Below are positions 17,401 to 50,026 of a stretch of DNA of 64,000 nucleotides, one piece after another. The translations under genes and the position numbers were made by a program. The first letter of the stretch is position 1, and the number at the start of each line of letters is the position of its first letter. Where the stretch lies: assembly GCA_025345505.1 (NCBI GenBank), contig JANVCC010000130.1, positions 2,757,350 through 2,821,349 on the forward strand. Reading direction: 5' to 3'. This DNA is from Todiramphus chloris collaris (Eukaryota > Chordata > Aves > Coraciiformes > Alcedinidae). The notes below the pieces were generated by a model that searched no databases, was not told the DNA's origin, and worked only from the letters and a program-made list of their open reading frames with translations.

Positions 17401-20400
17401 CCTCTTCGGAACCAGTTGTTGACATAGTAGTAGGGCCCTGCTCTCCTCGGTGTCTCCAGGCTGAGGCAGAGGTTGGAATTCTATGATATATGATAAACTC
17501 AAAATACATTATTGACAGCCTGCTGTATGTCACAGGTTAAATGACCTTTCTTCTGAAAAACAGACTGTTGAGAGTCGGTCATTTTCATGGTTTCTGAATC
17601 TGCTGTCAGTTCTTTTGAAGGCTTGGAGTTTTGGGAACTAAAGGGAGCTGGGAAGAAAGGAGATTAAAGAGTTTGGAATCCCTGAGGTTGGGAGTCTTGT
17701 GTAACTATCCCCTCCTGAGAAACAACGTCACCTTTAAGTTCCATTTTGTGATAGCCGCTTTAGGAGGAACATGAAATGATTAATTATATTTGAGAAATGT
17801 TGTTAGATGTCTGAGATGAAATCATGTAACCATGTCGTAGATGAAATAGGAGAGGGAAGAAAGAGTTGTTTAGATTAAAAGGGGGGAAAGAAAAGCCATC
17901 TTAAATACTAAAACTCCTCTGGAGATTGTTTTTCTTCCTTTAGACATCAGTGAGAAAACCTGGGGTCTGTGACCGAGAGCATCCATGTGTCCTAAACCAA
18001 GAGAACCGGGTCATGTCAGTGGCATATTATGCCTCTTCTTGCATGCTAGAAATGGAAATATTCTCACCTCCCTTTGTGCACTAAGCCATCCCCCAAAAGG
18101 TAGGAAAAATGGATTGTCAAAAATAAATCTTTTTCTTCCCCCCCCCCCCCTTGTCTCTCTGCAGCAATTCGGCAAAATCCTTGATGTAGAGATAATCTTT
18201 AATGAGCGTGGCTCGAAGGTAAGTCCTGTTTCTGTACCTGCTTCTCTTGTTTTGATTGCAGAGTAAAAGGCAGTTCATTGCCTAGAGAATATACTCTGTA
18301 GAGATAAGCAGGAATTAGTGTGATGGGGGAAGGGAAAAGCTATTTTGGGGGCTGTCTCCTATTCCCCCTGACTCCAGACTGGAGTATGGTCATTTCTGGG
18401 CAGCACGTACCAATGCTCCTAGACACTCCTGTCTGTAATGTGGGATCGGGTTCCCCAGCCTTTGGACAAGCAGGGAGTCAGTTACTTGAGCCTTCACACC
18501 AACACGCTCCTGTTGCAGTAGCAACGGGTGCCCTGTGGGGAAGGCAGAAAAAGGTAAACCAGCTTTTTGAGATGGGAGACTGTAAGAACAAAGCCTAAGT
18601 CACTCCCACCCCTACCCCCAGTGACATTTTCATTGCATTAAAATACTTCTGCAGAAAAACTGACATATCTCATATGTGAAAGGATTTGATTTACTTTATT
18701 TTGCAGACTTACTCGGCACTTCTGAGATACTGACCTTTCATGTTTGAGATATTTGGTGCCTAATATAAGCATCCTCATTCCACTTGCCCTGCCCTGTGTG
18801 GACCTCTCCCCACTGAATTTGCATTCACACACCTATTTTCATCCTCCAGATATATTAAAAGGGAGGTTTTGGTGAGGGTTAATGGTAACTAATTTCTCTG
18901 GAGACAAGATGTAAAATGTCGCTCAGGTCAGCTGCAGAGAGATTCAGTGCTCTTTGTCCTAATTGGCAATCGGTTCTCGTCACGTAACCAGTATCACCAC
19001 AATGACAAATTGATGTGATTCTCTCTCTGCCCAGGAGGTTCAGCACTGGAATAGCAGGGAGTTTTGCAGGTCAGGAGCAAGGTGCATCGCCAAAGCTCTG
19101 TGGGGGAAGCTTGCACAGTGCATGTCTATACTCTGCTTGACTTAATCAATGCTAAGATTCCCATTTTCAATTAAAACAAAATTTCCCTCCTCCCCACACA
19201 CACGTGTGTGCACATGTGTGCATGCACACAAGAGATTTTGAGATTGCAATTCAGCTAAACTGTTTTGGTTTCGAGTCTACGCCTTTCGCTTGGATTTGAG
19301 GTTCACAGTCTTAAGGTGGCCTCTTTGCTTCAACATATATTCCCGGGTATGTTCATGTTCGGAGCCCTCTGCAAATTTCCACCTGTGGTGCCCACGATGC
19401 ATTCTGAAATTCTTCAGTCTCTGTATTAGCTGGAAACCAGAAAGCAGTCGATACGTATACAAAACAAAGAAGGTGTTAGCCCTTTCCCCATCCTTTGTGT
19501 TTAATACCATGGTTTTGTGTTTTGGTTTGGGTTCTTTTTGTTTGTTTGTTGTTTTTTGGTTTGTTTTTTTTTTTTTAATAAGACAGTCTAAACGAGTAAA
19601 TGTTTATATTGCTTAGTTAGAGAGTTTTACTTCCCTGTGTGGATGAAAATCTATATGCTTTACCAAAACAATCTTCTATGCTGAGTTTGTAAATATTTAT
19701 TCTGCTTTCTACTGTTCTTCTGATATTTATAGGCCAGAGCTATCTGTGAAATAGTCTTGATTTTCGTCATTTCTGTCTGGCTTTGGGAATAACCTCTGGC
19801 CTCTATCAAATCCCTACTTGTTTGGATGTAATTGCAAAAGAAAGAACGAAAATAACTGGCCTGGCAGAGTGGTGAGCTCTAGCCTTCATCCCCCACTGCC
19901 TGTGCTTTTCTAGAGCAGTGTTTTCCTCTCCACACATGAACTTCACTCTCTCTCCCCCATCCATACAGCCCTGTTCTGAATGCCCACGGCTGCCCTTTCC
20001 CTCCTAGGCAGCGCTGGCATTGGAGGCTTTCAGTGAAGACTTGATTTATGACTACATACCTTCCTGTGCAGTTGTTAAAGCCCAAGGCTTCTGGTTTTCA
20101 GTTAAAACAAAAATTATTGCTGAAGAGTTCCATGATGAATTTTATCCTTTACCCTTAATGAATATATGAAAAAAAAGAAAGTTGATCTAAAGAGATTTTA
20201 TCCAGCCCTTGACCATGCAGTTTTCTACTGCTTTTTTTGTCATTTTACAGCAAAAAGCGGTTGCAAAACTGATAGCCTGTATGAGCGATGGGACAGAATC
20301 TGAACAGAGAAAGAGAACACCCAAAGAGTAATTTAGCGGTATCTTTGCATCCTTCTCTGCCCAAAATAATTCCTCTTTTAAAAAGAATGCAAGATTATTC

Positions 20401-23400
20401 CTGCTTAGCATGAAAATGGGAGGCCCCAGTGTTTGAGTGGGGTGTAGCTGCACAAAGCACCTGGTATTCACATAGTAATGGAAAAACAACTGTTTGGTGA
20501 TCTGATGGTGAAGCAAAGGAAATGGATCTTTCTGGAGGCCACTCACTCACTCTTGGGTTCTTCCTCCACCTTAGGAAAGAAAAAAAATCTGAATGCATTT
20601 TCCTGCCCTGTGGTTTCCATTCTAATCTAATGATATGAAACCTCTCTCTCTTCTTCTTCTCCTCCTCTCTCTTGGGAATCCGAAAGCAGATGCTCCTGCT
20701 GCCTGCCTTGTGCTGTGTTCTCAATGCTCCCTTCCCTTCCCCGGGTTCCTAAGGGTTGTAGAGTTTTGTGTATATGTTTTGTAAATATTTCTAAGGTACA
20801 GTGGTAAATCCCAAACTGCCCTGGGTTCACCCCCACCCAGTGTATGATGGGGTCGAGCAGCGCTTTGTCCCTGCCAAGCTGTGGCAGGAGATCTCTGCTG
20901 GGATCGCTCCAGTGCTGGTCAGTAGGAGGGACTGGAGGAAGCGTGCGAGTTGCATTCTTCCTTTTGAATCCACCTGAGATGACCAGGCAGTTTTCTTCAA
21001 CAGCCTGAGGGAACTGTATCAAACCAGCTGCATCTTCAGGATCTCTGTGTATTTAGTGTGTTTGGTCACCAGAGAGAGAGCAGCATGTGTTCCTCACGGC
21101 AACCTCACACCTCAGGTTCTTGCAGTTGGCTTAGAAAACGTTACTTGTTGACTTTCTGTATCACAGCAGAGAGGAGGCAGTTCATAATTAGTTTTGATGA
21201 TTCTCTTCTCAAAGCGATGTGAATTCTTGTTTCCTAACTAGATTTCTGCCCAGATTCAATCTTTTTGGTAGGATTATATGGGCCCTGGTAGACTTCACGC
21301 TGATACTGCTTTGCTCAATATGAGAAACAAGATACAAACTCCAAACAGCCCTTGAATTTCATTTTGGTTTATTCTTCTTTAATAGAATGACATCAGCCTT
21401 CCCTTGATGTGTTTGGGTTTTTTGCTTGCTTCCAGGAAAACAACTGTTTGTTTCATTTATCCTGTTTACCATTACATGTCTAGTTCTGACCCCCGTTAAG
21501 TGCCTTTAAATAGCATGCTGCTCGTGGTTGCAGTTTGCTATGCACTTCACTGAATCGTGAATAAAACACCTCCAGAGGAAGCTGAGAGAGAGGATTCCTG
21601 CTCCTGTAGTTAGCGGAGACACACCCTCTCGATCCGCATTTTGGCAGCATTGTGCTGAACCCAACAAGTGGACATATTTGCAGAATTAATGCAGTCTGCC
21701 TGCGTGACGAGTGCCCTGTGTCATTTGTAAAGCTGCAGGGGAAGGGAATCCAAGCTCTTTGCTCATCAGCTGCATACCATGTGGCGTTCCATGATGTGCC
21801 CTCAATGACATTCAGAGACCAAGAGTGCATAAACACACAGCAAAATCTTGGCCAAAGAGGAAGCATTTTTTAAAAATTTTTTTTTAATTTTTTTTAGATT
21901 TTTAAATGGTAAGAGGTCACATTAGTGCAGCTTGCCAGCTCGTGGTTTCGAGTTAGTGTAACTTGATGTCCCTCACTGCATACAACTTGGGGAGACATGG
22001 ATCTCCACATTCTTGTGTAGGACTGAAGTGTCTAGAAGCACTTCATATTTAATTAAAAATTCATTTGCATAGGAGCTTACATCTTATTTTTCACAAAGAA
22101 ATTGCATCTCTTGGTGAGTAGACTAAGTAAGTAAACATGATAACTAAAAATGAAAGCCCTGTGGAAACACTTAAGGCTTTTTTATATTTCTGGTGAACTG
22201 TAGGTTAAAATAAAAATATGAATTTAGGTTTTGATAACTAAAAGGCTATGTTTGCATGTGCATTAACATTTCTCCTTTGAATGGATTAGGTGCTTTGAGT
22301 TGAGCCACACTTGTTCTGGACTTGGTTTCCACTCAGTGAAATAGATGCAACCACTTTTTACATAAAATAAATTCGATGTCTTGTTTTCATTTTAATTCTA
22401 TTTTTATATTTTTTTTGTTCAGATGTCATCATTTGAGCCTGAAATACAAATACTGGTATTTACACAGAGGCTTAATAACAAATTAAGAACCAGCAAACAG
22501 TATTGCTATCTGAGGTTACCAGATCCCTTTGTAATGCCAATGGCATTAGGGAGACAGGACCCATGTCCCTGTATCATAGTTCAGTGATACTCTGTGATAC
22601 TAAACTAACGAATTAAATTAGTCCATACGCTGAACTGGTTTATTTAAACTTGAATAATTAAGGCTGAAATTGATGGCTTGATAGTATAAGCTGATTTGCT
22701 TGCTCCTTTGGGAGTCCCTTCCTAGTAGTTCTGGTTCACTGCGTAGGGAGTTGAATCCAGGGTGCTAAATTAGCAAAAAACTGCTGCAGCAGGGAGAGAG
22801 AGGCAGAAATGAGCTTGTCATCTTCCAGTTTAGCGTGCTGAACTCACAGACCACACAGTAAGATCCACCATCAGTTGAGGGGAAGAGGAGGAGCACACAA
22901 GTGGGCACACCATGGGGCCATGAAGCCCCTGACCTGAGTTGGCTGGAGCTGCTCTGAAGCCCCCAGCTTTCTGTGCTGCCTGGGCTCCTGCGGGACAGGC
23001 TGGCAGGGGAACAACACAACAAGCTGCACTGAGGGAATGATCCGGCTTAAATATAGACCTGCAGGTTTTGGTTGAATAGTCCTTTATGGGTTTTTAGCCA
23101 GATTAACTCCCGCATCCAATTCACAGGTGCTTTATGTGCACGTGCCGTAATGCACTCAAAGTGTGGCACGGAGGAGCTGGAAGAGCTGCTGAAATGGTGG
23201 CAGCTTGGCTTACACCGATTCCATCACCCGATTTAAAGTGTGCATTTGTGTGTGTAATTTCAGTAATGTGTTTCTGAATTTTCTGCTGTGTTTCTGTCAG
23301 TGCGTTCAGCCCTGCTCATCTCAGGTGGATTATAGCTGAAACCCTCCTACTCTCTTCAAATGCCTTGGAAACAGGTAGCCTAAACTGCTGTCTCCTTGGC

Positions 23401-26700: not shown

Positions 26701-27815
26701 ATGTGATACCCTGAATCTTCACACTGAGTAACGTTTATTTGATGGTGCCACCTAGAAGCCCTGCTTGCTTTCAGGGCCCCTTGCATTATTAGCGAAGTTA
26801 CAGGCATAGGACTAGACATGAGCTGTGCCCCGAAGAGCTTACAAGGGATGCTTTACAAACAGCCCTTCCTCTCAACAGTTTTCTAAGGTAGGTAATTATT
26901 ATTGTCTCCATTTTACAGGTGGGAAAAGCAAGGTTCAGTGTTTGATTTGCCCAAAGCTTCGCAGAATTCCTGGTGCCAGGCGTGAACTCAGATTGCTGCT
27001 CGCTCTCGTAGCAGTTTCTCAAGAGAACGAAGTGCTGCTCAGTGTCGATGTCCTGTACTGTGTCTGGGGGGGCGGGGGGTCCCACAAAGCATGCGTGTTC
27101 ATTAGCAGAGGAGAGAGATGCCCCGCTTGGGCTTGACCAGCTTGCCTATGTTGGAGCAGGTTTTAGTGTTCATAAGCAAACAAAACAAACCAAAAAATTG
27201 TCTCGAGTAACTTTGTACTTCTTTTTTGGTCTGGCCTCAATTGCTTTTATGTTTTCTTTCTTGGTTTTTATTTCTTTTGGTTTTTTGTTGTTTGTTTTTT
27301 TTTTTAATTACTCTTATTATGATTACAGTTCCTTTATTTTATCGAATTTAATTTCTTTCATTTATGAAACATGCATGAACCAACAATGTGACTCTAGGAG
27401 GTTATTGCTGAGTTGTGCTGATGTTGATTTCATACTGTGATATTTTTTCTCTATTTACCTAGAGATCAGTATTTCAATATATAACGATGTGCATGTTTTC
27501 CCCCCTTCTCCCGCTGCATGCAGGGATTCGGGTTCGTAACTTTCGAGAATAGTGCTGATGCAGACAGGGCCAGGGAGAAATTACACGGCACCGTGGTAGA
27601 GGGCCGTAAAATCGAGGTGCATGTCTTCAGTAATTCAATTTCTTCTTTATATTTATTCTTTTGATTTCTTTTTGTGTCTTGCCTCACTTATTTCACATTT
27701 GGATCCCAGTCTCGTGTGTGCGTGTGTGTTTGTGTCAGTGTCCTTCACCTCCCTGCACTGAAATGTATAAAAGTTTACACCCCTTACAGAATATTTTTAT
27801 TGTTGTTTTGGGTAT

Positions 27816-27846
<31 letters not shown>

Positions 27847-29259
27847 CTTTTTTTTTTTATTAAGTTTCTGGTTTGTTTTTTTTTCCCCACCCACTCCGAA
27901 TTTTTGCCCTTCTGCTGTCTTGATTTTTCCTTTGCTTCAGTTTGCGAGGCTCCGATTTCCTGTTACCAGGCCTGAACAAAAACTAACTGAAAGAGTACTG
28001 TCCGACTTCTAACTCTGTGTCCAAAAAAGAAAGCAGGGGGCCAGCCAGTATCCTCTCTTTCCTCTGAGGCCAGTTCTCCTCCATGCAAGTGTGAGATGAT
28101 GCCTGTGGTGGGAGGGGAAGGGAGGGGAGACACGGGGCAGAGCCCCGAGTGAGCTTTTTTTATCCACGCTGTTAGTTTCTTGACCTGCTTACGGTCAATA
28201 ATTGACTCGGTGAAAGCTAATCCTTAAAGTTTCTAGCTCTCACCGTGGGGGAGTGGAGAGTTAATGTTGACTGGCCAACGTGGCCGTATATTGGGTGTGC
28301 CTGGTTTTGACCAGTTTGGTGTTCCACTGTGTTGAAGGCTAACTGGCATCTTCCCTCTCTCCCTCTTTCTTTGGAAAAAAAAAAAAAAAAAAGTGCAAAT
28401 ATTAAAACAAAAAGCCGCCGTTTTTGAGTAAGATGTCTGCATATTTTGCTTTTTTTTGTTTTGTTTTTTTTATTTCCCTTTTCGATGGTTTAGCGTTTAG
28501 GGCCCTTCACTTGACTCACTCTTTCCATGGTAACTATACACAATGCTGGCGATGGTACGAGTTGGCGGTAAGTGAAACAAAAGCGCTAGAGAAGAAGCTT
28601 TTTTTTTTTCTTTTTTTCTTTTTTTTTTTCCTCTTTAATTTTTCTTAAAAGTACAAAATAAAAAAAAAATTAAATAAGAAAGAAAAAAATCCATCTGCCA
28701 TCTCACATTAACACTACGAAATGTGATTTGACTTGTTGTCCCCACCCACCTCCTTCCCCCTTCTCCCCCTTTTATTTTCAATGCTGTTGAGTAATGCCGC
28801 CTGGACTTTGGATGTACATATCGTTTTGTAGCAGTCTGAGCTGTTTGATACTGACTTCATGGTGATTTACCCTTGCACATCTTACTCAGAGTTACTGAAC
28901 TCCAGTTTGGCTGGTTTTTATTAATGCACCCATTTCCTTTTCTCTCTCTCCTGCCCCTTCTTTCTGCTGCTCTCTCTTTCTGAGACCTGTTTGTAGCTGT
29001 TACTGTTCGTTTTCTCTTTTTCTTTCTTTCTTTCCCTCCCACTCCCCCGTTTATTTCTTTACTTGGTTAAATGCAGCTGTTGGTCTCTTGCTGACTGGTG
29101 GTTTCTGATCAGTTCTGGCAATTTTTCCTTTAAGTGCTTGTGTTGCACTTTGCTGTAGCAGCTGATTTCAGGCACTCGCTCCATCTTAATGATTGTCTGT
29201 GAGACCCTATCTCCTCCCTCCTCCCCTCCCTACCCTCTGAATCAATTGTGGTTGTTCGG

Positions 29260-29291
<32 letters not shown>

Positions 29292-32200
29292 CTTTCTGTT
29301 TTTTTCTATTGTGGTTGTTCGGTCTTTTTTTTTTTTTTTTCTTTTCTTTTATCTGTGTGTGTTTAACTGCATGCTCTCAGTCTCATCATTGTTGTTTTCC
29401 ATTCTTTCTTTTTAAATGTGTAATGTTTCTATTGTTTGGGGGCTGAAACGAGAGTAAAATGTAGCTCCAGACTCCCCACCCAGCTTACGCTCACCATCCA
29501 TAAGTCTCAAGGGCCTGAGGCAGCTTTTCTTTTTATATCAGCTTTTTTTTTGGTCTTCACCCTGGCCACAGTACCCATTTGGTATGGGTTTTGATAAATT
29601 ATTGATGTTGTACAAAGACTTCACCCTCCTTGCAAGAACTTTGAGGCTGTCTGACACAAGGCTGTGCAGTAACTTGGCTTCCAAACTGGTCCATCTTTTC
29701 TTTATCAGCACCATCTCTGTGGTAACACCCCACTTGCTTGAGCAATCAAACTGCTTGGAACTATGCAGAGCTCTGTAAAGAGGGTGGAGGGCACAATAAA
29801 ACAAAAAAAAAACCTCCCAGGTCTACTGCCTTGTATTTCTTCTTTTTGCTCAGTGAGGTTTGTGACAAGGAAAAAATAATCTAGAAAAAGATCTGAAAAT
29901 TATGAGGAGGAAATTGGTGAACACAGACCGTCAAAACACTTGGTGGCATACCAAAAATCTCCTCAAGCCTTGGGAGTCCAAATCTAAAGCTGATGGACTC
30001 CAGGCTACCCTTTTTCTCCATGCCTGCCAGTGACCTGCTGGGCCCCAATCCCAACGGTGAGCCTGATGAACAGGTCAGTTTGTGCATCGCCTGGTTCAGT
30101 TCCCCTGCCCTGGGCTGCAGAAATTGTCACTGCCTCTTGAGTAGAACCTGGACAAAACCTCCAAAGTTTTGCCCTTTTGATCCATGAGCTGAAAATAAGC
30201 ACGCACCAAGAGGTGATAGGGTGGTGGAGAGTCTGCACTTTACTCTTGTTGGCCTTTTGTTTAATGCATAATTTTAAAGTGCCACATTTAGCTGTAACTT
30301 TTATAATTAAATGAGAACTGTTACAAGTAATTTAAAGATTGCATTCTTGTAAAATTAGTTGTTTAATATTTTTTTTTGCTTAGAGAAGTATAGTGTGTGT
30401 GTGTATGTGTGTGTGTGTGTTATCTGAGAACTTTCCACCATCTTTCCTAACGTTCTATGCTTCCTTCCCTCTCCTCCCCCTCCCCTTTCTTACTTTTAGG
30501 TTAACAACGCCACTGCGCGAGTGATGACCAATAAGAAGATGGTCACACCTTATGCAAATGGTAAGAGAGACTGTTTGTACTAATGATGAGCTGACAGGTT
30601 TGAAGAAACACAAAAGGGAAAAGTCAACTCTCCTCAGGACCAAAAAAAATCCCAAAAGAAGCCAATAAAGCCCCACAAACCCTAATTTATAGCATTATTC
30701 CTTATTGTAACCCTTAAGCATTTATGGAGGAATACCATTTTACAGATGAAGAAGTGGGGACAGAGAGAAGTAGTAATATGCCCAACATGGCCAAGCTGGG
30801 GAAAGAAGCCGAGGACTGACGGGTTGCCTGCCACTCCTGGAAGCTGATGCTGTACAGTGGGATGTGCAGTACTCCTGAATCTTGTTGCCGTCACGTAGAT
30901 ACCTAAATATGAATGTACTAGCATAACTTAAGATACATAATTGGATATGTCTCAGTTTAGTTTCTAACTGTGAAAGTACAGCTGTCCCCGAGCAGCTGAG
31001 AAGAACAGAGGCATTGCACCTACTGTTTGCTTGCTTTTTGTTTCAGGCTGTAGCCTGTGCTTAGTCATTTTCCAGTGAACCTGAACAGAGAAAGGCCAAG
31101 TTGTTTGGGCAATGAAGAATCCTGTTTCACTGGGATACCCTGATGGTTCTGTCTGTGCAGTAGTTTTATTGCATAGGCATATACAGCATAAGAAGTCATT
31201 CTCCCAATGGAACTGAATGCTTCCTTGATAAGGATTTTGAATCTGAGTCTTTTCCCTGAAAGAGGCAGAAGAGTTCTTTTTGGTCTGAAAGTGTTCCCGA
31301 ACAGCTTCAGCAAGGCAGGAATGTGCATGTAGGTAGTTGCTAGCATGAGAATCCATTTTGCTTACAATGTAAGACTCAGAAGTCAGAAGATGCAAATTTT
31401 ATTTGTGGCTCTGCCACTGACTTGTGTGGCTCTTGGCAAATAGATCTTATATCTTGGTTACAGAACTGGAGAAACAGGGCCAGGCAGGAAGGCTGTGATT
31501 CTGAATCTCCGTGTCTGAAAGAAACTGGGAGATTTTGTACCAGAAGGCAACGCAACCGTGTTACATTGTCCTGAAAACAAGGGCAGAAAACATGCATGAC
31601 TATTTGATAACAAAACCTGGCTTATTGGTGAAACCCTGGTAACAGGCAGGAATATTTTGCCTTCTCAGCCAGCAATTTAAAGCCAGCTTTAAAGCTGCTC
31701 GAAGGAGTTTAGTGTTAGATCAGACTTAAGGCTTACGGATGAGTGGTCGTACGACTGTTAGCGAATTTGAGGGTCATTCTGTCTTCTCATTGCTACCACT
31801 CACTTCAGTGTTTTGCCATCAAGGTGGGCAGAATAGCAGCAGTGTGCCCAGTCTTGTGGAGGGAGCATGAATTACATCTCGATACTTTCCTAGCAGATGG
31901 AGGGATGGTGTTGATGGGCTGCAGTTCACAAAGTTGTTCATATGGTTTCTAGGCTGATCAGAGGTGTTAAAGTGCGTTAAGTGCATCAGGACTCCCAAGA
32001 CACAGGAAGGATATGGATTTATTTTAAGTAAAAATAGCCATGTGACTGATAGCTGAACAGATGAGGTCTTTCCTGAAACGAGTGCTTTGTGGAGGCCATT
32101 CCAGATTGTGCTGTTAGCTTTACACCCCTTCTCTTCCTCAATAGAAGGCGGTGGGCGAGGGGAGAACAGAGGTTTCCAGAGCTGACTGGAAACGTGTTCT

Positions 32201-44208: not shown

Positions 44209-47200
44209 CTTTTTTTTTTCTTGTTTTGTTTTTTTTTTTTTTTTTGTTTTTTTTTTTAATTCTTTTGTTGGGAAGCACAATTTGTTCATGTTTGAGAATG
44301 TTCTACTCTGTTACAGTTTATATTTACTAGAGCGCTCAAATTGAGTGGCATCAGAAATCACTAGAGGTGGTAGGACCATGTAGCTGAGGTTACAGCTGAG
44401 CTCTGCATACCAGTTAAAGCTGTGTGTGAACAGGAATAGCAGGAAAAACAAACTGGTGCTTTGGGCAAGCTGAGCAGGGCTTTAGATGCATTGATGGAAT
44501 TATAGGTGGATCCTGGGTTATGGAGAAATAGGAGCAACAGCTGGGTAAGGCAACCTGCACAGTGTCTTCTTTGCTCTGTACTGGTCCCAGAGCTTTGTGA
44601 AAGCATTTAAGAAGTAACAAGTAATAGTCACAATGTTCTTCCTCTTTCCTTCACCCTGTTTTGGTGTATTTGGACCTGCTGGTCGTGCTAAATGCATCCC
44701 CGTGTCAGAAATCCCCCAGCTGTCCACACTCATTGCTCCTATGACAGGAACGTACCATGGCCATTATAATCCCCATTTTTGGTTTTATTTGAAGTACACA
44801 CAAGTAGAATTTGCAGACTGCTTTGAACTGAGTGGTTCTGCCCCTGTGTGTGTACCTCTATCCTGTGACTTTTCTTTTTGGTTTTTTTTTTCCCCTTTTT
44901 TTTTCNNNNNNNNNNNNNNNNNNNNNNNNNNNNNNNNNNNNNNNNNNNNNNNNNNNNNNNNNNNNNNNNNNNNNNNNNNNNNNNNNNNNNNNNNNNNNNN
45001 NNNNNTTGCATCAGTGCATGGTTGAAAAAGCAATACACATGTCAGCTATTTCTTAACTTCATTTCTCCAATGAATTATTTCTCCTGTTTTTGTTTTTTTT
45101 TTTGTTTGTTGTGCAGTTGACTGAAGAAATGTTAACATCCCGCTCTAAATCTCTCAGTGGAGTCTCTGTTCCCTTCTCTGATATAACAGATGGGTTATTG
45201 CTTGTTATAATTATTAACATTGTGGTGTGGGCCAGGGCTAGGGTGGGAGCCATTTCGGGGGGCGAGGGCGGGAGGCTGCGGGGAGTCGTTAAGGTTGGAA
45301 TGTTAACTCCAGTGGTGACTGACTGTTTCCGTAATAGCAGGTTGTTGTGGCTGCACGCTCTAGTACTTGAGGCTGTGTACTTCACTGAGCTTGTGGTAGA
45401 GCCTAGGGCGAACTGCTGTCCCAAGAGAATGCTGGGATGGATAGAACTAGCCAATATGAGTCTGAACGTGGTGACTTTGCTGGTTGTTCTAGCTCCAGAT
45501 GTCGGCATGCTTAGTTTTTAATTTTGATTAATAAATGTTACGCCATTCCCCCTCCCACACCTGATTCCAGCCCTTCTTTTCTTTTCTTCTTTCTTTTCTT
45601 CTTCTTTTTTTTTTTTTTGTTTTGGTTTTTTAATTTGTTTTGTTTTGTTTTCATTTTGTTTCATTTTCTTTTACGAGAGACATGAGTTAAAAGAGAATTA
45701 CATGATAACCCTTTTTGGTTTCAAACTGCATCTTGCTGTCATGTTCAGATTACGTGCCAGGCACATTTGGAATGGCTTCTGGTCTGAAATGTGGCTGGCA
45801 AGCATGGGGCAGAGCGGGAATCTGGGTGCGCACTGAAACTGGCTGCCCTACAGAGGGTGGCACCAGAAAAAAATGCCTGGTATGCCGTGCCCAAGTGACA
45901 GACCCCATCAGGACTTCAGGAAGCTCATAAACTTAAGGGAATACCACAATGACATTCATTCATATGAAGTTCTGTCTTAATTTGGTGAGGTTGATGAAGG
46001 TTTGATTTGTAGTAAGGCTGCACCTCATTCCTCTCATCTCCACGTTCTGGAGGTGGGAGTATTGGTGATGCAAGACAAAACTAAGCTAAACCTCCCCAAA
46101 CCATCAATCCAAAATGCAGGGATTGAAACAGCTAGATGAGATTAAAAGGGCTGAACTGTAACGTGACGTCTCTTTTGGGCCATGTGGTGATGTTTCAGAC
46201 GTGTAGATTCTTCTGTTAACTAGAAGTTTGAAGAGGCTCCAAGTCCCTCTCCTCTAGCGTAGGAAAGGGTCCTCAGGCATGTTTTAGACAGCACATTAGC
46301 TTTCATGGGGCTAATGTCACGGGGCTAACACAACCCCCCCCTCCTCACCACAAGCAACCAAAATTAATTTAAAATCATTACTTCTAATTTAAAAGCTACC
46401 TAGCCCAAAGCTGAGCACTGCTGAGCAAACACAAAGTCCTGTAGTAGAGCTGATCTTGCGCTCTTAGTTACAGAAGATGTATAGGGAAGAAATGCTAGAG
46501 GTACATTGAGCTGATTCTGGAGGTGGAGAGCATTAAGTCTGCCTTCTGGTCCTTCAAATTCTGAAATGTCAATTGGAAGGAAAAATAAAGCCAGAAGTAA
46601 TCTGGAATTTTCTGATGTTATTTATGGCTCATTGTGTTTATAGCGAATCTAAATCACAGTTCGTTTACAATTCCTCCCCCAAAACATGTGTACAATAAGG
46701 AAAGATCTGACCTGGGCTTCAGAGCCTTCTTTGCTCCCTGTCATGCAGCCTTTGCCCTTGGTCTGAAGGGTGGCTGGCCTCCATCCTTCATTGCTGCGGG
46801 GTGTTCAGAGATGCATGTCTGAGCCACATCTTCCTCTGCCTCAAGAGCTCCCTGTGGGAGTTCCAGGAGGAGACACACAGGTCTTCCTCTGGGTCAGGAT
46901 TCACATTTTGCTAACCCAACTGTAAGTGATCAGGGTAGTCATTTTAAAGACTTTTACTACAGGTCTGTAGCACAGGCAGAAATAAGCAGCAATGCAGACT
47001 GTTCTGGCATAATTTGTTTCTTTCTTACATGGAGGGAGGGGAGGACAGTCTGGTTGGTATCGATGGCAGCTTCCTGGCTGTCAGCCCTGAGACCACCAGG
47101 GACCGTTTTCTCTGACCATCTTTTCCTGATGGCTTTTTACCTTCTCTGGCTGTTGCTACTTTTATGCACCCGGACCAAATGAAATTCTAGCCTTTTGGGT

Positions 47201-50026
47201 TTCTCAGACTTAAAAAAAAAAAAAGATAGAGGGGGTGGAAAAGGTAGGAATTTCTCTGATGGGCCCCTTTCTAAAGTACACACTTCACAGAAAGCACCCA
47301 CCTCTAATTTCCCCTGCGTAAGAGGAAGGGGACATAAAATTTACATTGCATGCAAGATTTCATCTCTCTTCCGGTTTTCAGTTCCTCCATGCCAAATTTA
47401 ATTTCCTGCAGGGATAAAACCATGCTCAGGCTTGCTTTAGTTTATTCCTTCTGCTAAACGGGGTAATGGAAGTGTCTCCCTGGTCCTTCTGAGGAAAGGC
47501 ATGTACATGAGTTACGGGCGATGCTTGCGATGGACGTGACATGGGAGCTGATGCAGTTTGAAACACTTCCTCTCCTTGTGATGTGTGTGACTTTTTTTTT
47601 GTTTTGTTTTTTGTTTTGTTTTTTGTTAGTATTTTTTTTCCCCGTTTTATTTTTTGATGCTCTGCGTGGGTGGACAGGTATCTGTAAAGTCAGTTCTCTT
47701 CTCTCCTGCAGGGTGGATACGCAGCCTACAGATATGCACAGCCTGCTACTGCAACAGCAGCCACAGCCGCTGCAGCCGCTGCAGCAGCTTACAGCGATGG
47801 GTATGTAAGGGGCAGGTGTCCATGGGGGCTAGCTTGCTCTGCTCAGGGATTCAGGGAGCACTGATCCATTACAGTACTTCTTTCCCTGATTCTTTGTCTT
47901 TCTTGCACTGGCACGTGCATACATGCATGCACGACCCAACGTGAAAGACCTGAATGCACCATTTGTCTCTCTGCTCCTGGGCAGTGTTGCCCTCCCCTGT
48001 GTGTGAGCTGGCACAAATCCTGGCCTCTTCCCTATCCTTGTCGTCCCCTGTACAAAGGAGGCAGTGTGGTTACGGCCTCAGAGTTAAAAGACCTGGCTTG
48101 CCTTGCCAGCTGCTTGCTCTGGGTGGGCTGTTTCATCACTGGGTGCATTTCTCTCCCCATCCATAAAGTAAAAATTACTCGGCTCGTACAGTACTTTAGG
48201 ATGCTTTAATGTGTAGCTCTGTATAGATACAAAGGGTTAGCATCATCAGAGTGCTCACCTGAAGATTTTTTTTTTTATGTCCTATGCGGTGAGGCCGTGT
48301 TTTAATCCTAGCACATGCAAGACCATTAAATTTTATACTCTGTTCTCATTCTGGAGAATCCCTCCCTGCTGTCCATTTAGCAGCCGTTACCGTGCCAGTG
48401 GCACTAGCGCCAGCAGTTGCTCTCCTCCCAAATTGCATCACGCGAGGTAAAGGATGCACTAGCTGTCATCTCAAAGGTGCTGACCCCTTTCTTACAGGTC
48501 GAGCTCATGTCTTCTGCCACATTCCTTCTTTGCAGGCCATTCTCTCACACATTTCATACGATGCATGGAAGCAGGCCCGTAGGATCTCTTCAGAGAGGGG
48601 CTGCCTGTATGCATGCGTGTGCATGTATGCATACATGTGTGTAGAAGGGCATGCTGCTTCTTCCATTGCCTGTGGTCCGACAGCTGTTTCTCTGCCCCTC
48701 TAAAGTGACACTTGTTTTTCTCTCTCTTCCCCCCCCTCTCTTCAGTTATGGCAGGGTGTACACAGCAGATCCTTACCACGCCCTTGCCCCTGCCGCTAGC
48801 TACGGAGTTGGCGCTGTGGTAAGTGGGATATTCTTTCTTGTGGTGTTTCTCATTCACAACATGCAGAACTGCTGCTCACTGGGTGTCAAGTCATGAAACC
48901 TCACCCAGAAAAACCTTTTTGTTGAGGAAGGAGGTCCTTACCTGCGGTGCTGCATTCCCAGTTCTGCATTTGTACATTTGTGTGCGCATGCTGGGAAAGG
49001 AGACAGGTTGCAGGACACCGGTTGTTGCTTGGTCTTGCACAGCACCAAGTACAAAGGAGGTGGTAAAAGAATGACCAGAAATGCCAGGAACCAGAACATC
49101 GTTGGTGAATTGGTAGAACTGTATTAAGGTCATGTGTAGAGCAAAAATCAGGAATAGTTAGAGATGCAAGACACCCTTTCATGCCATTTTCATTGAGTTT
49201 AAAGGCTCCTGTTGCATGTTGAGAAATCAGTTCTAGGAAGCAAGGGAATAAGTTGTTCTCATGACATCTTGCAGCAAAGCTGCTCCACTTGGTTCTCTCT
49301 TCCACTAGTGGAAGAATGCGGTGTCCTGCCTGCCAGCAGTAGTTATGCAAGGGCAGGAATGAGGTAAGCTGTCATTGGAGGGGAGTGGAGCTGCTTGCTG
49401 AAAACACATGCTTGCCCATCTGCTAGCCAGCACAGTATCTGTATTCCAGCAAAGGCTGGAATACAAATGTGTGCAGAGAAAAAGACACCTAAATATAGAT
49501 ATCTGCAGTGTAGCACCTCGGTTTGAGCCTCAGCTTATCATGTGGGTTCTCTTTAGGGTCAATGAAGGAAAAGCAGGTACTTCTAGGATACCGAGGCACC
49601 GTGTCTATTTTAGACCTTTACCTTAAGGTGAGGTGAAGAGCATCCCAGAAGTCCTGGTCTCTGCTATCTGTAAAGACAGCCTAGACAGCTGGCTCAGAGA
49701 TGAGGACTTGTGAGTCCCCTCTCTGATACTGAACTGAACTGCCTTACTGAGACTTGCCAAACTTCACCTCCTGCTGTCTGGCCATGAGCATGTTCTCCTG
49801 AGCCATGACTTTGGTTTTGCAGGCAACGTTCTCCTCTCTTGTTTCTTAGAGGTGCTGATGGTGGTGGGTCAATGCCAGGACATGTCTGTTAGTACTTCTG
49901 AGGTCATTCGGGTGCTGTCCTGAGAATTTCTTCACAGTTCTCTTCCTAACCACCTCTTCTTCTCTCATTTAATTTCTACAGGCGAGTTTATACCGAGGCG
50001 GCTACAGCCGATTTGCCCCCTATTGA
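2304..50026 (+). CDS. RBFOX2: RBFOX2 coding region, 11 exons joined (5' part of gene off-window)
   Basis: RBFOX2 is a nuclear splicing regulator that binds (U)GCAUG through one RRM and promotes or represses nearby exons depending on position. The eleven exons listed separately join without a frame break into 882 nt, coding 293 residues and a stop. In order they give a Gln/Ser/Thr-rich linker, the RRM (RNP2 LHVSNI, RNP1 GFGFVTF), then a C-terminal region rich in Ala, Gly, Tyr and Arg that ends in RFAPY. RBFOX2 is chosen over RBFOX1 and RBFOX3 because of the [15 protein letters not shown] linker, the long Ala run before [14 protein letters not shown], and the [12 protein letters not shown] ending. 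The family is about 350-450 residues, so roughly 100 N-terminal residues and the promoters lie upstream of base 1. All donors are GT and all acceptors AG. The family assignment is near certain; the paralog choice rests on remembered protein sequences. Confidence 0.94.
3740..4558 (+). mobile_element. Degraded CR1 LINE, 3' part
   Basis: The segment follows the CR1 ORF2 C-terminal consensus: a 'ctgttcagggggacctggcc' stretch, a 'ctgggagggaataacctctg' stretch, then 'atactgtgtccagtttgggc', and the untranslated tail with 'ttgcccagagaggtgg' ending in 'attctgtgattg'. Stops and frameshifts break every frame, so it is dead. Sense is the same as the host gene. The 5' limit is approximate; divergence is clearly greater than in the copy at 8430-10562, suggesting an older insertion. 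Confidence 0.8.
6206..6530 (+). mobile_element. CR1-like LINE fragment, end of endonuclease domain and linker
   Basis: Frame +2 reads [14 protein letters not shown]..., then [20 protein letters not shown] and [11 protein letters not shown]. This is the pattern at the end of the CR1 endonuclease region (RRFLE, LLDLVLTNREGLVGDV, GSLGCSDHEM), followed by SFRR...[10 protein letters not shown], which fits the linker before the reverse transcriptase. The His of the SDH motif is replaced (SDC), in keeping with decay. The fragment is truncated on both sides and not contiguous with the next CR1 piece. Confidence 0.7.
7085..7152 (+). mobile_element. CR1 3' terminal fragment
   Basis: The sequence matches the CR1 end: a 'ggctggactagctgacctt' stretch, 'cagaggtcccttccagccct', then 'ccattctgtgactctatga', including the octamer-like terminal repeats typical of CR1. 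It is only about 70 bp, the usual 5'-truncated form. Confidence 0.8.
8430..10562 (+). mobile_element. CR1 LINE, about 2.1 kb, with broken ORF2 (reverse transcriptase)
   Basis: The copy starts in the linker before the reverse transcriptase ([11 protein letters not shown]..., [17 protein letters not shown]) and runs through [16 protein letters not shown] (8612 on), [14 protein letters not shown] (near 9215-9255), [11 protein letters not shown] (9608-9640), a CADDTKLGG catalytic block (about 9695-9720) and [16 protein letters not shown] to the 3' tail, ending near 10562 with 'ccaacccctaacattctctg'. The frame changes near 8880-8900, 9500-9530 and 9945-10000, and an in-frame stop follows GLHP near 9081, so it cannot make protein. 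The usual FADD is CADD here. It is 5'-truncated, in gene sense and intronic. Confidence 0.9.
10563..15040 (+). other. Intronic stretch without recognised features
   Basis: No exon, RNA gene or repeat family could be identified over these 4.5 kb. Open frames are all under about 130 codons and overlap on both strands without similarity to known domains. Occasional AATAAA and T-rich runs are unremarkable. Confidence 0.5.
15070..15610. promoter_or_regulatory. CpG-rich patch inside the large intron
   Basis: I count about 25 CpG dinucleotides in roughly 540 bp, in GC-rich sequence including 'ctctcgcctcgcggcc', while the intron on either side is AT-rich and CpG-poor. It could be an intragenic CpG island (an alternative promoter or an enhancer) or a chance GC-rich block. 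No TATA box or first exon is evident. Open frames cross it on both strands, as expected of GC-rich DNA with few stops. Confidence 0.35.
18040..18045 (+). promoter_or_regulatory. TGCATG (RBFOX binding motif) upstream of the 54-nt RRM exon
   Basis: The hexamer lies 120 nt before the acceptor at 18164/18165. RBFOX binding upstream of an exon usually favours skipping, so this is a possible autoregulatory site. A single hexamer is expected by chance about every 4 kb, so the evidence is positional only. Confidence 0.35.
18165..18218 (+). CDS. RBFOX2: RBFOX2 exon: RRM beta-2 segment (54 nt)
   Basis: Eighteen codons give [18 protein letters not shown], the RRM segment from helix 1 through beta-2 into the loop before RNP1. 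It is phase 0 at both ends, so skipping would remove 18 residues without a frameshift but would destroy the fold. The acceptor is 'tctctctgcag' behind a run of 13 C (18138-18150); the donor is gtaagt at 18219. The residues agree, as I recall them, with all vertebrate RBFOX paralogs. Confidence 0.96.
19194..19230. repeat. CA/TG-type simple repeat
   Basis: Alternating purine-pyrimidine tract of CA and TG units with interruptions, containing one TGCATG at 19219-19224. It is probably an old microsatellite. Confidence 0.7.
23761..23860. other. Assembly gap (100 N)
   Basis: Exactly 100 N, flanked by more than 30 T on the left and 26 T on the right. A round 100 usually marks a gap of unknown size; the poly-T edges suggest that reads collapsed in a long homopolymer. 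Confidence 0.98.
24290..24392. repeat. T-rich low-complexity tract
   Basis: Runs of T broken by short C and G blocks. No transposon end is recognised, so it is probably simple low-complexity DNA. Confidence 0.7.
26825..27005 (-). mobile_element. MIR-type SINE
   Basis: The + strand reads like the reverse complement of the MIR core: 'gaagagcttacaa', 'attattgtctccattttaca', 'gtgggaaaagcaaggttcag', 'gatttgcccaaagc' and 'aggcgtgaactcag' occur in the expected order (tattatccccattttacag, tgaggaaactgaggc, cttgcccaag, gattcgaac). Many substitutions indicate an ancient copy, as is usual for MIR in sauropsids. Limits are approximate. Confidence 0.7.
27372..27377 (+). promoter_or_regulatory. TGCATG upstream of the autoregulated 93-nt exon
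   Basis: The hexamer lies about 150 nt before the exon. It belongs to a group of four (27372, 27490, 27515, 27618) within 252 nt. Confidence 0.5.
27490..27495 (+). promoter_or_regulatory. TGCATG 28 nt before the 3' splice site
   Basis: The motif sits just upstream of the polypyrimidine tract (27496-27512), a position from which a bound RBFOX protein could hinder branch point or U2AF recognition. Confidence 0.65.
27515..27520 (+). promoter_or_regulatory. TGCATG abutting the 3' splice site of the 93-nt exon
   Basis: The hexamer ends directly before the terminal CAG (27521-27523). RBFOX bound here would cover the acceptor. The position agrees with the autoregulation described for mammalian Fox genes, in which Fox protein represses its own RRM exon. 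Confidence 0.75.
27524..27616 (+). CDS. RBFOX2: RBFOX2 exon: RRM RNP1 segment, autoregulated cassette (93 nt)
   Basis: Thirty-one codons from [14 protein letters not shown] to VEGRKIE carry RNP1 with the aromatic residues that stack on RNA, helix 2 and beta-4. Both ends are phase 0, so skipping keeps the reading frame and yields an RBFOX2 protein with a crippled RRM. Mammalian Fox genes do this, and the short form acts as a dominant negative (Damianov and Black). The sequence supports the same here: TGCATG copies at 27490 and 27515 upstream and at 27618 over the donor. The donor is a weak gtgcat (27617) rather than gtaagt, because the TGCATG replaces the consensus. The coding call is certain; regulation is inferred from motif position. 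Confidence 0.96.
27618..27623 (+). promoter_or_regulatory. TGCATG overlapping the 5' splice site of the 93-nt exon
   Basis: The exon/intron junction reads GAG|gtgcatg. The motif begins at the T of the intron's first GT, so U1 pairing and RBFOX binding are mutually exclusive at this site. Confidence 0.75.
29245..29324. repeat. Two-copy tandem duplication with 63-bp spacing
   Basis: The 17-mer attgtggttgttcggtc occurs at 29245-29261 and again at 29308-29324, each followed by a T run of about 20-30. This looks like slippage or unequal crossover within T-rich DNA, or a local assembly error. Confidence 0.8.
30393..30421 (+). repeat. TG dinucleotide repeat upstream of the 61-nt exon
   Basis: About 14 TG units with one TATG interruption, ending some 80 nt before the acceptor at 30499. 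As RNA this is a UG-rich tract of the kind bound by CELF/TDP-43-type proteins; any role is speculative. Confidence 0.8.
30500..30560 (+). CDS. RBFOX2: RBFOX2 exon: end of the RRM (61 nt)
   Basis: The exon encodes [20 protein letters not shown] plus the first base of a Gly codon. It closes the RRM at [10 protein letters not shown] and starts the C-terminal domain. Phase is 0 at the start and 1 at the end. The acceptor is 'ttacttttag' and the donor gtaaga at 30561. The residues match vertebrate RBFOX proteins throughout. Confidence 0.95.
30725..30850 (-). mobile_element. MIR-type SINE fragment
   Basis: The + strand 'taccattttacagatgaaga', 'gtggggacagagagaag' and 'atgcccaacatggccaagc' follow the reverse-complement MIR core (ccattttacagatgaggaa, ggcacagagaggttaag, cttgcccaaggtcac). 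Ancient and diverged; limits approximate. Confidence 0.6.
31375..31480 (+). mobile_element. Possible MIR fragment
   Basis: 'gtggctctgccactgacttg' followed by 'gtggctcttggcaaat' resembles the MIR core (ctctgccacttactagctg, tgggcaagt), and a weak match to the tail follows. Lower confidence than the other copies. Confidence 0.45.
32950..33003 (+). CDS. RBFOX2: RBFOX2 exon: start of the C-terminal domain (54 nt)
   Basis: With the carried base it encodes [18 protein letters not shown], phase 1 at both ends, so skipping keeps frame. The acceptor is 'ttgtttcag' and the donor gtagag at 33004. The segment is shared by all vertebrate RBFOX proteins and links the RRM to the low-complexity C-terminal region. 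Confidence 0.95.
33004..33134 (+). other. RBFOX2: Short RBFOX2 intron (131 bp)
   Basis: This is the shortest intron of the gene in the window. Retention would add an in-frame TAA within a few codons (GGT AGA GCT TAA). It contains an 11-T pyrimidine run (33101-33111) and ends at a modest acceptor, 'acgttaaattag'. Confidence 0.85.
33135..33227 (+). CDS. RBFOX2: RBFOX2 exon: C-terminal domain (93 nt)
   Basis: With the carried base the exon encodes [20 protein letters not shown] and then [11 protein letters not shown], phase 1 at both ends. It is a second 93-nt in-frame exon, unrelated to the autoregulated one. The donor is gtaagt at 33228. Asp in GNDAAV versus Glu in some mammals is a conservative change. 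Confidence 0.95.
33228..34333 (+). other. RBFOX2: RBFOX2 intron of 1.1 kb
   Basis: No exon or transposon is recognised. It is fairly GC-rich near the 3' end and has one TGCATG at 34113. Confidence 0.7.
34334..34466 (+). CDS. RBFOX2: RBFOX2 exon: Ala/Arg-rich C-terminal segment (133 nt)
   Basis: The exon encodes [20 protein letters not shown], then [20 protein letters not shown] and PAYPG, phase 1 in and 2 out. RGRGR is an arginine-glycine patch common in hnRNP-type proteins. The acceptor is 'tctgtctttacag' and the donor gtaagc at 34467. Because it ends two bases into a Gly codon, the choice of next exon sets the frame of the whole C terminus (see the 40-nt exon). Confidence 0.95.
36733..36843 (+). 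repeat. Ancient interspersed repeat, unclassified
   Basis: The start 'ggaattgccatactggatca' and the end 'tactccagaggaaggtgaaa' match, as I remember it, a repeat widespread in turtle and bird DNA (gccatactggatcagaccagtg ... cttcagaggaaggtg). I cannot assign the family by eye. Confidence 0.5.
37090..37440 (+). mobile_element. Old CR1-type LINE fragment
   Basis: 'acctgtactggaatattgcc' corresponds to the CR1 ORF2 'ctggagtattg' block. Later 'actaaataagcttgatcaat', 'tcatggtcattaagttccta' and 'agtcagacttagatataagg' follow the C-terminal and 3' region of ancient CR1/L3-type elements. It has many stops and is clearly older than the 8430-10562 copy. Confidence 0.6.
39730..39735 (+). promoter_or_regulatory. 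TGCATG upstream of the 40-nt exon, with a GCATG next to it
   Basis: The stretch acgcatgtgcatg (39723-39735) holds an overlapping GCATG (39725-39729) and a full TGCATG (39730-39735), about 97 nt before the acceptor. A paired upstream site is a plausible repressor of the tissue-specific exon. Confidence 0.5.
39832..39871 (+). CDS. RBFOX2: RBFOX2 40-nt exon (neural B40 type)
   Basis: The exon completes the Gly codon and encodes [13 protein letters not shown], phase 2 in and 0 out. Its length and peptide match the neural B40 exon of mammalian Fox-2, which alternates with a 43-nt muscle exon (M43). Because 40 is not a multiple of 3, skipping it moves all later exons into another frame. The acceptor is 'ttttctgcag' and the donor gtaagt at 39872. 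A T-rich tract of about 50 nt precedes it. No M43 counterpart was found by eye in the following intron, which contains a gap. Confidence 0.94.
44172..44262. repeat. Poly-T tract, about 90 bp
   Basis: Runs of 8-30 T broken by single C or G. No LINE or SINE body is attached, so it is probably simple repeat expansion. Confidence 0.8.
44906..45005. other. Assembly gap (100 N)
   Basis: Exactly 100 N after a T/C-rich run. The true length is unknown, so a small exon could be hidden here. Confidence 0.98.
45117..45521 (+). CDS. Candidate alternative terminal exon of RBFOX2 (speculative)
   Basis: A T-rich tract ending in 'gtttgttgtgcag' (to 45116) is followed by 134 open codons and a TAA at 45519-45521, then AATAAA at 45530-45535. 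The open frame is in phase 0, the phase in which the 40-nt exon ends, so splicing from 39871 to 45117 would append a 134-residue tail starting [15 protein letters not shown]. The tail has three hydrophobic stretches (near 45189-45225, 45336-45390 and 45438-45510) and resembles no domain I know, which is odd for an RNA-binding protein. The opposite strand is also open across most of it, so chance low stop density is a real alternative. I found no match to mitochondrial genes or a known transposon. Confidence 0.25.
   Translation: MTEEMLTSRSKSLSGVSVPFSDITDGLLLVIIINIVVWARARVGAISGGEGGRLRGVVKVGMLTPVVTDCFRNSRLLWLHALVLEAVYFTELVVEPRANCCPKRMLGWIELANMSLNVVTLLVVLAPDVGMLSF
45530..45535 (+). promoter_or_regulatory. 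AATAAA after the candidate terminal exon
   Basis: The hexamer lies 9 nt after the TAA of the candidate exon. C- and T-rich sequence follows. By itself AATAAA is common; it matters only through its position. Confidence 0.35.
47712..47800 (+). CDS. RBFOX2: RBFOX2 exon: Ala-rich C-terminal segment (89 nt)
   Basis: The exon encodes [20 protein letters not shown] and then an Ala run and YSDG, phase 0 in and 2 out. The Ala codons form a GCA/GCC/GCT-rich stretch, a likely site of length variation between species. In the alternative frame used when the 40-nt exon is skipped, the same bases read [16 protein letters not shown] and on without a stop. The acceptor is 'tctcctgcag'; the donor is gtatgt at 47801. 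Confidence 0.95.
48055..48255 (+). mobile_element. MIR-type SINE
   Basis: 'aggcagtgtggttacggcct', 'gttaaaagacctggcttgcc', 'ttgctctgggtgggctgttt', 'tctctccccatccataaagt' and 'cagtactttaggatgcttta' appear in the order of the sauropsid MIR consensus (tagtggttagagc, gacctgggttc, gaccttgggcaagtca, tttccccatctgtaaa, aagcgctttgaga). Confidence 0.7.
48610..48625 (+). promoter_or_regulatory. Two TGCATG motifs 10 nt apart upstream of the 73-nt exon
   Basis: The stretch tgcatgcgtgtgcatg (48610-48625) holds two full RBFOX motifs about 120 nt before the acceptor at 48745, in a purine-pyrimidine alternating tract; a further TGCATG lies at 48562. It may be a microsatellite by origin, but as RNA it is a multivalent RBFOX site. 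Confidence 0.45.
48746..48818 (+). CDS. RBFOX2: RBFOX2 exon: [15 protein letters not shown] segment (73 nt)
   Basis: Together with the two carried bases this exon encodes [20 protein letters not shown] and GVGAV, phase 2 in and 0 out. [14 protein letters not shown] is specific to RBFOX2 as I recall it; RBFOX1 has a different stretch here. The acceptor is 'ccctctcttcag' and the donor gtaagt at 48819. The alternative frame reads [20 protein letters not shown] and on, open to the end. Confidence 0.95.
48819..49981 (+). other. RBFOX2: Last RBFOX2 intron (1.2 kb)
   Basis: The intron has one TGCATG (49213) and a perfect 10-bp hairpin at 49441-49464. No exon or transposon is recognised. It ends in 'ttctctcatttaatttctac' plus ag. 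Confidence 0.75.
49441..49464. other. Perfect 10-bp inverted repeat (hairpin)
   Basis: GTATTCCAGC and GCTGGAATAC flank the 4-base loop AAAG. The stem is perfect. It is short for a microRNA precursor, and the flanking bases do not extend the pairing noticeably. Confidence 0.8.
49982..50026 (+). CDS. RBFOX2: RBFOX2 last coding exon, C terminus [14 protein letters not shown] and stop
   Basis: Fourteen codons and TGA (50024-50026). The RFAPY end is the conserved nuclear-localising C terminus of nuclear RBFOX isoforms. Phase 0 in. In the alternative frame, reached by skipping the 40-nt exon, the sequence reads [17 protein letters not shown] and stops at 50034-50036, so the two isoforms terminate ten bases apart and only one carries RFAPY. 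Confidence 0.96.
   Translation, partial: ASLYRGGYSRFAPY

Follow-up and report, generated by a model that had tools for sequence, protein, structure and literature searches.

The window, by which we mean the whole stretch of 64,000 nucleotides that was analysed, contains the RBFOX2 gene on the + strand, in a genome of 1.17 Gb and 889 contigs. Among the coding exons that we located in the window, the first encodes RLHVSNIPF (about 2388) and the last ends with the stop that follows FAPY (near 50020). The best matches among solved structures were Fox RRMs, and one of these, RNA-binding protein 9 (2cq3), which we take to be an older name for RBFOX2, covers residues 1-61. The residues past the RRM read MVTPYAN here, versus TVNPYTN in the RBFOX1 structure 4zka, and we therefore assigned the gene to RBFOX2 and not to RBFOX1. 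A run of about 100 N lies at about 44,900-45,010, and is seen as X in the translations.

We observed that the RRM exon at 27524..27616 (+ strand), exon 6, is 93 nt long with phase 0 to 0 and encodes 31 residues, including RNP1 (GFGFVTF), in agreement with what an earlier note on this DNA had proposed. Its acceptor reads ...cgcTGCATGcag/GGA and its donor GAG/gTGCATGtc, the slash marking the exon boundary. The upstream RRM exon (numbered 5 in PMC3126832) spans 18165..18218 on the + strand (54 nt, 18 residues) and has the donor AAG/gtaagt, while the downstream exon 7 spans 30500..30560 on the + strand (61 nt). The flanking exon ends had been placed correctly at 18218 and 30500, and joining these two positions, with exon 6 skipped, keeps the reading frame. 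The Pfam RRM match is lost upon skipping: the 69-residue stretch that includes exon 6 matched RRM_1 at E 4e-13, and no Pfam family match was obtained for the 38-residue stretch without it.

Four copies of TGCATG had been described around this exon, and all four were found exactly as described on the + strand. The first, at 27372..27377, lies 152 nt 5' of the exon 6 start, and the second, at 27490..27495, lies 34 nt 5' of it. The third, at 27515..27520, abuts the CAG acceptor on its upstream side, and the fourth, at 27618..27623, lies over the donor, at intron positions +2 to +7. In their 2010 study, Damianov and Black reportedly placed Fox elements over these same splice sites in the Fox-1 and Fox-2 genes of mammals. 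The note had offered the close packing of motif and both splice sites as what this lineage adds, a reading that finds no support here.

We estimated how often such a cluster arises by chance, using shuffles of the window that preserve dinucleotides. Three + strand TGCATG within 134 nt were seen in 7 of the 200 shuffles, and four within 252 nt in one of the 200. Since seven shuffles reach three copies in 134 nt, the clustering alone is only moderately unusual. The window as a whole is enriched in the motif: its two strands together hold 72 copies, whereas 100 shuffles had 46.7 on average and 66 at most. Its tightest triple lies elsewhere, at 48562-48625 (three TGCATG in 64 nt), unrelated to exon 6 and about 120-185 nt upstream of a coding exon. 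Given the seven shuffles and this tighter triple, clustering was rejected as sufficient proof.

The placement of the motifs at the splice sites is the stronger point. When we compared 12 donors in the window (those of 10 coding exons and two candidate cryptic exons), only that of exon 6 had a TGCATG nearby, with the motif start allowed from -19 to +25 nt of the last base of the exon. Similarly, exon 6 was the only one with a TGCATG within 20 nt of its acceptor among the four acceptors compared (those of exon 5, exon 6, the 6* candidate and exon 7). The donor of exon 6 was also weak. With approximate splice-site frequencies, its log-odds score was 0.32, the lowest among the 12 donors, although it still scored above 90.7% of the 3894 GT dinucleotides in the window. 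Its predicted duplex with U1 (-5.4 kcal/mol) was the third weakest of the 12, and only the exons encoding DGFYGADLY (-4.9) and SFQADVSLG (-5.1) paired more weakly.

Exon 6 therefore belongs by its features with the autoregulated RRM exons of the Rbfox genes. It is part of a Fox gene and contributes 31 RRM residues including RNP1, its in-frame skipping breaks the RRM, and it carries Fox elements at its splice sites, which is reportedly a feature of the class.

The class itself has been described in several papers. In 293T cells, variants of Rbfox3 repress exon 6 of Rbfox2, whose inclusion falls from 92% to 39-48% (PMC3126832), and the skipping of this exon is an in-frame RRM deletion that yields a dominant-negative product (PMC3126832). 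Rbfox1 and Rbfox3 each have an equivalent of exon 6, as does the homologous gene of the fly (PMC3126832). The same delta-RRM isoform is treated in PMC5577181 and PMC11380049, the former recording the -93 isoform in rat brain and the latter stating that exon 6 encodes 31 of the 73 RRM residues. For the repression of this exon by Rbfox proteins and the resulting delta-RRM protein, all three papers cite Damianov & Black 2010 (PMC3126832, PMC5577181, PMC11380049), and a general dominant-negative feedback of Fox proteins is cited by PMC6884704. No other mechanism for exon 6 was met in the passages of the literature examined.

Taken together, these observations make us confident that the exon at 27524-27616 is orthologous to the autoregulated RRM exon of Rbfox2, in which RBFOX binding across the splice sites leads to skipping and to a dominant-negative product. 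RBFOX2 (or RBFOX1 or RBFOX3) would bind the UGCAUG copies that lie upstream of exon 6 and over its two splice sites, and the bound protein would most likely keep the 3' splice site and the weak 5' splice site from being recognised. Exon 5 would then be joined to exon 7, in frame, and the skipped product would lose RNP1 together with the rest of the second RRM half. This RRM-defective product is expected to act as a dominant negative and to damp Fox activity. We infer that Fox-driven skipping operates in the present species, and the block is probably exerted by direct occlusion of the splice sites. The claim that RBFOX2 protein skips the exon to make an RRM-defective isoform thus stands as far as the layout goes, which fits it; the mechanism itself was published for mammals, as the note had acknowledged.

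The note had also held that the layout predicts a loop. We folded the RNA, and its minimum-energy fold does pair the motif at 27490 with the motif at the donor, TGCATG being able to pair with itself through wobbles. However, the fold was no better than those of shuffled sequences (z 0.11), as 109 of the 200 shuffles folded at least equally well. A loop or hairpin spanning exon 6 was accordingly rejected as evidence, and direct occlusion of the splice sites suffices without one.

One could also argue that RBFOX sitting over the weak donor aids U1 and so raises the inclusion of exon 6 rather than its skipping. Such an activity is documented for MYH9 exon A2, which Rbfox activates at a weak 5' splice site (PMC13158602). 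For Rbfox2 exon 6 itself, however, PMC3126832 reports the opposite, a drop in inclusion with Rbfox3 overexpression, and further motifs are located here on the acceptor and 5' of it. We consider this explanation very improbable. Even less credit is due to a coincidence in which the splice-site sequence happens to spell TGCATG and has no role here, since, for all that the shuffle counts for three motifs in 134 nt and the enrichment across the window speak for it, the sole motif-bearing donor of the 12 is that of the very exon that is Fox-repressed in mammals.

We also evaluated a paralogous exon of the same genome. A protein search of the bird's own genome listed three places, the window's own exon not being among them, and the absence of RBFOX1 from these three is uninformative. 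One of them (L001, G000:C89:553243-553335) is an exon that we call RBFOX3-like. It is likewise 93 nt long, and is 87% identical to RBFOX2 exon 6 in protein and identical at 70 of 93 nt. Its donor, GAG/gtgctc, has a log-odds score of -1.22 and a U1 duplex of -5.4, and is as poor as that of RBFOX2 exon 6, both starting with gtgc. Unlike RBFOX2 exon 6, the RBFOX3-like exon has TGCATG at neither splice site, and the only sense-strand copy in its 3,093-nt locus begins 269 nt past the exon start.

These results bear on the proposal that the exon 6 donor is poor as the motif takes its place. As the RBFOX3-like donor is equally poor and free of the motif, this proposal was not supported, and the motif need not be the cause of the weak donor. 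It is possible that the motif was lost secondarily at the RBFOX3-like exon from an ancestral state. Alternatively, the paralogues may be wired asymmetrically, with a weak gtgc donor common to RBFOX2 and RBFOX3 and the Fox word over the splice sites only in RBFOX2, a view that we put forward tentatively and rather doubt. If it were true, RBFOX2 would directly sense the total Fox level and RBFOX3 would not, and in evolution the weak donor and the overlapping motif would be steps that can be separated.

Rbfox2 also has cryptic NMD exons. According to PMC3126832, there are two of these: 5* has 41 nt, and 6* measures 74 nt in human and 71 nt in mouse. They are said there to be conserved in birds, and the joining 5-5*-7 leads to two adjacent stops in exon 7. 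We searched for their counterparts by length, splice score and frame. With strict thresholds, no 41-nt exon was found in intron 5; with relaxed thresholds, the best of 34 AG..GT pairs at this length, chosen post hoc, was a candidate 5* at 22073..22113 (+ strand, 41 nt), with a weak acceptor (0.5) and a fair donor (4.7). A TGCATG lies at 22253, 140 nt 3' of it. Within intron 6, a single pair in the length range 68-77 nt passed the threshold, a candidate 6* at 28494..28567 (+ strand, 74 nt), and no GCATG was found within 300 nt of it. With these candidates, both 5-5*-7 and 5-6*-7 run into a pair of adjacent stops within exon 7. The 6* candidate differs from the published 6* in having an additional in-frame stop inside it, and the absence of a nearby GCATG is a second difference.

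The mechanism is already known, and its presence in this genome is expected, the exon being an ordinary orthologue of a known element. The work confirms, for one more genome, an autoregulatory exon that was already published, and this is useful for annotation. It makes two small additions, namely the paralogue comparison, which speaks against the weak donor being due to the motif alone, and the positions of the two NMD exon candidates. These candidates agree with the published Rbfox2 5* and 6* in length (41 and 74 nt) and in their host introns. As for exon 6, a comparison of exon length, reading frame and encoded RNP1 showed no difference from the mammalian Rbfox2 exon, which is Fox-repressed. 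The two share a 31-codon (93 nt) RRM exon, in-frame skipping and the loss of RNP1.
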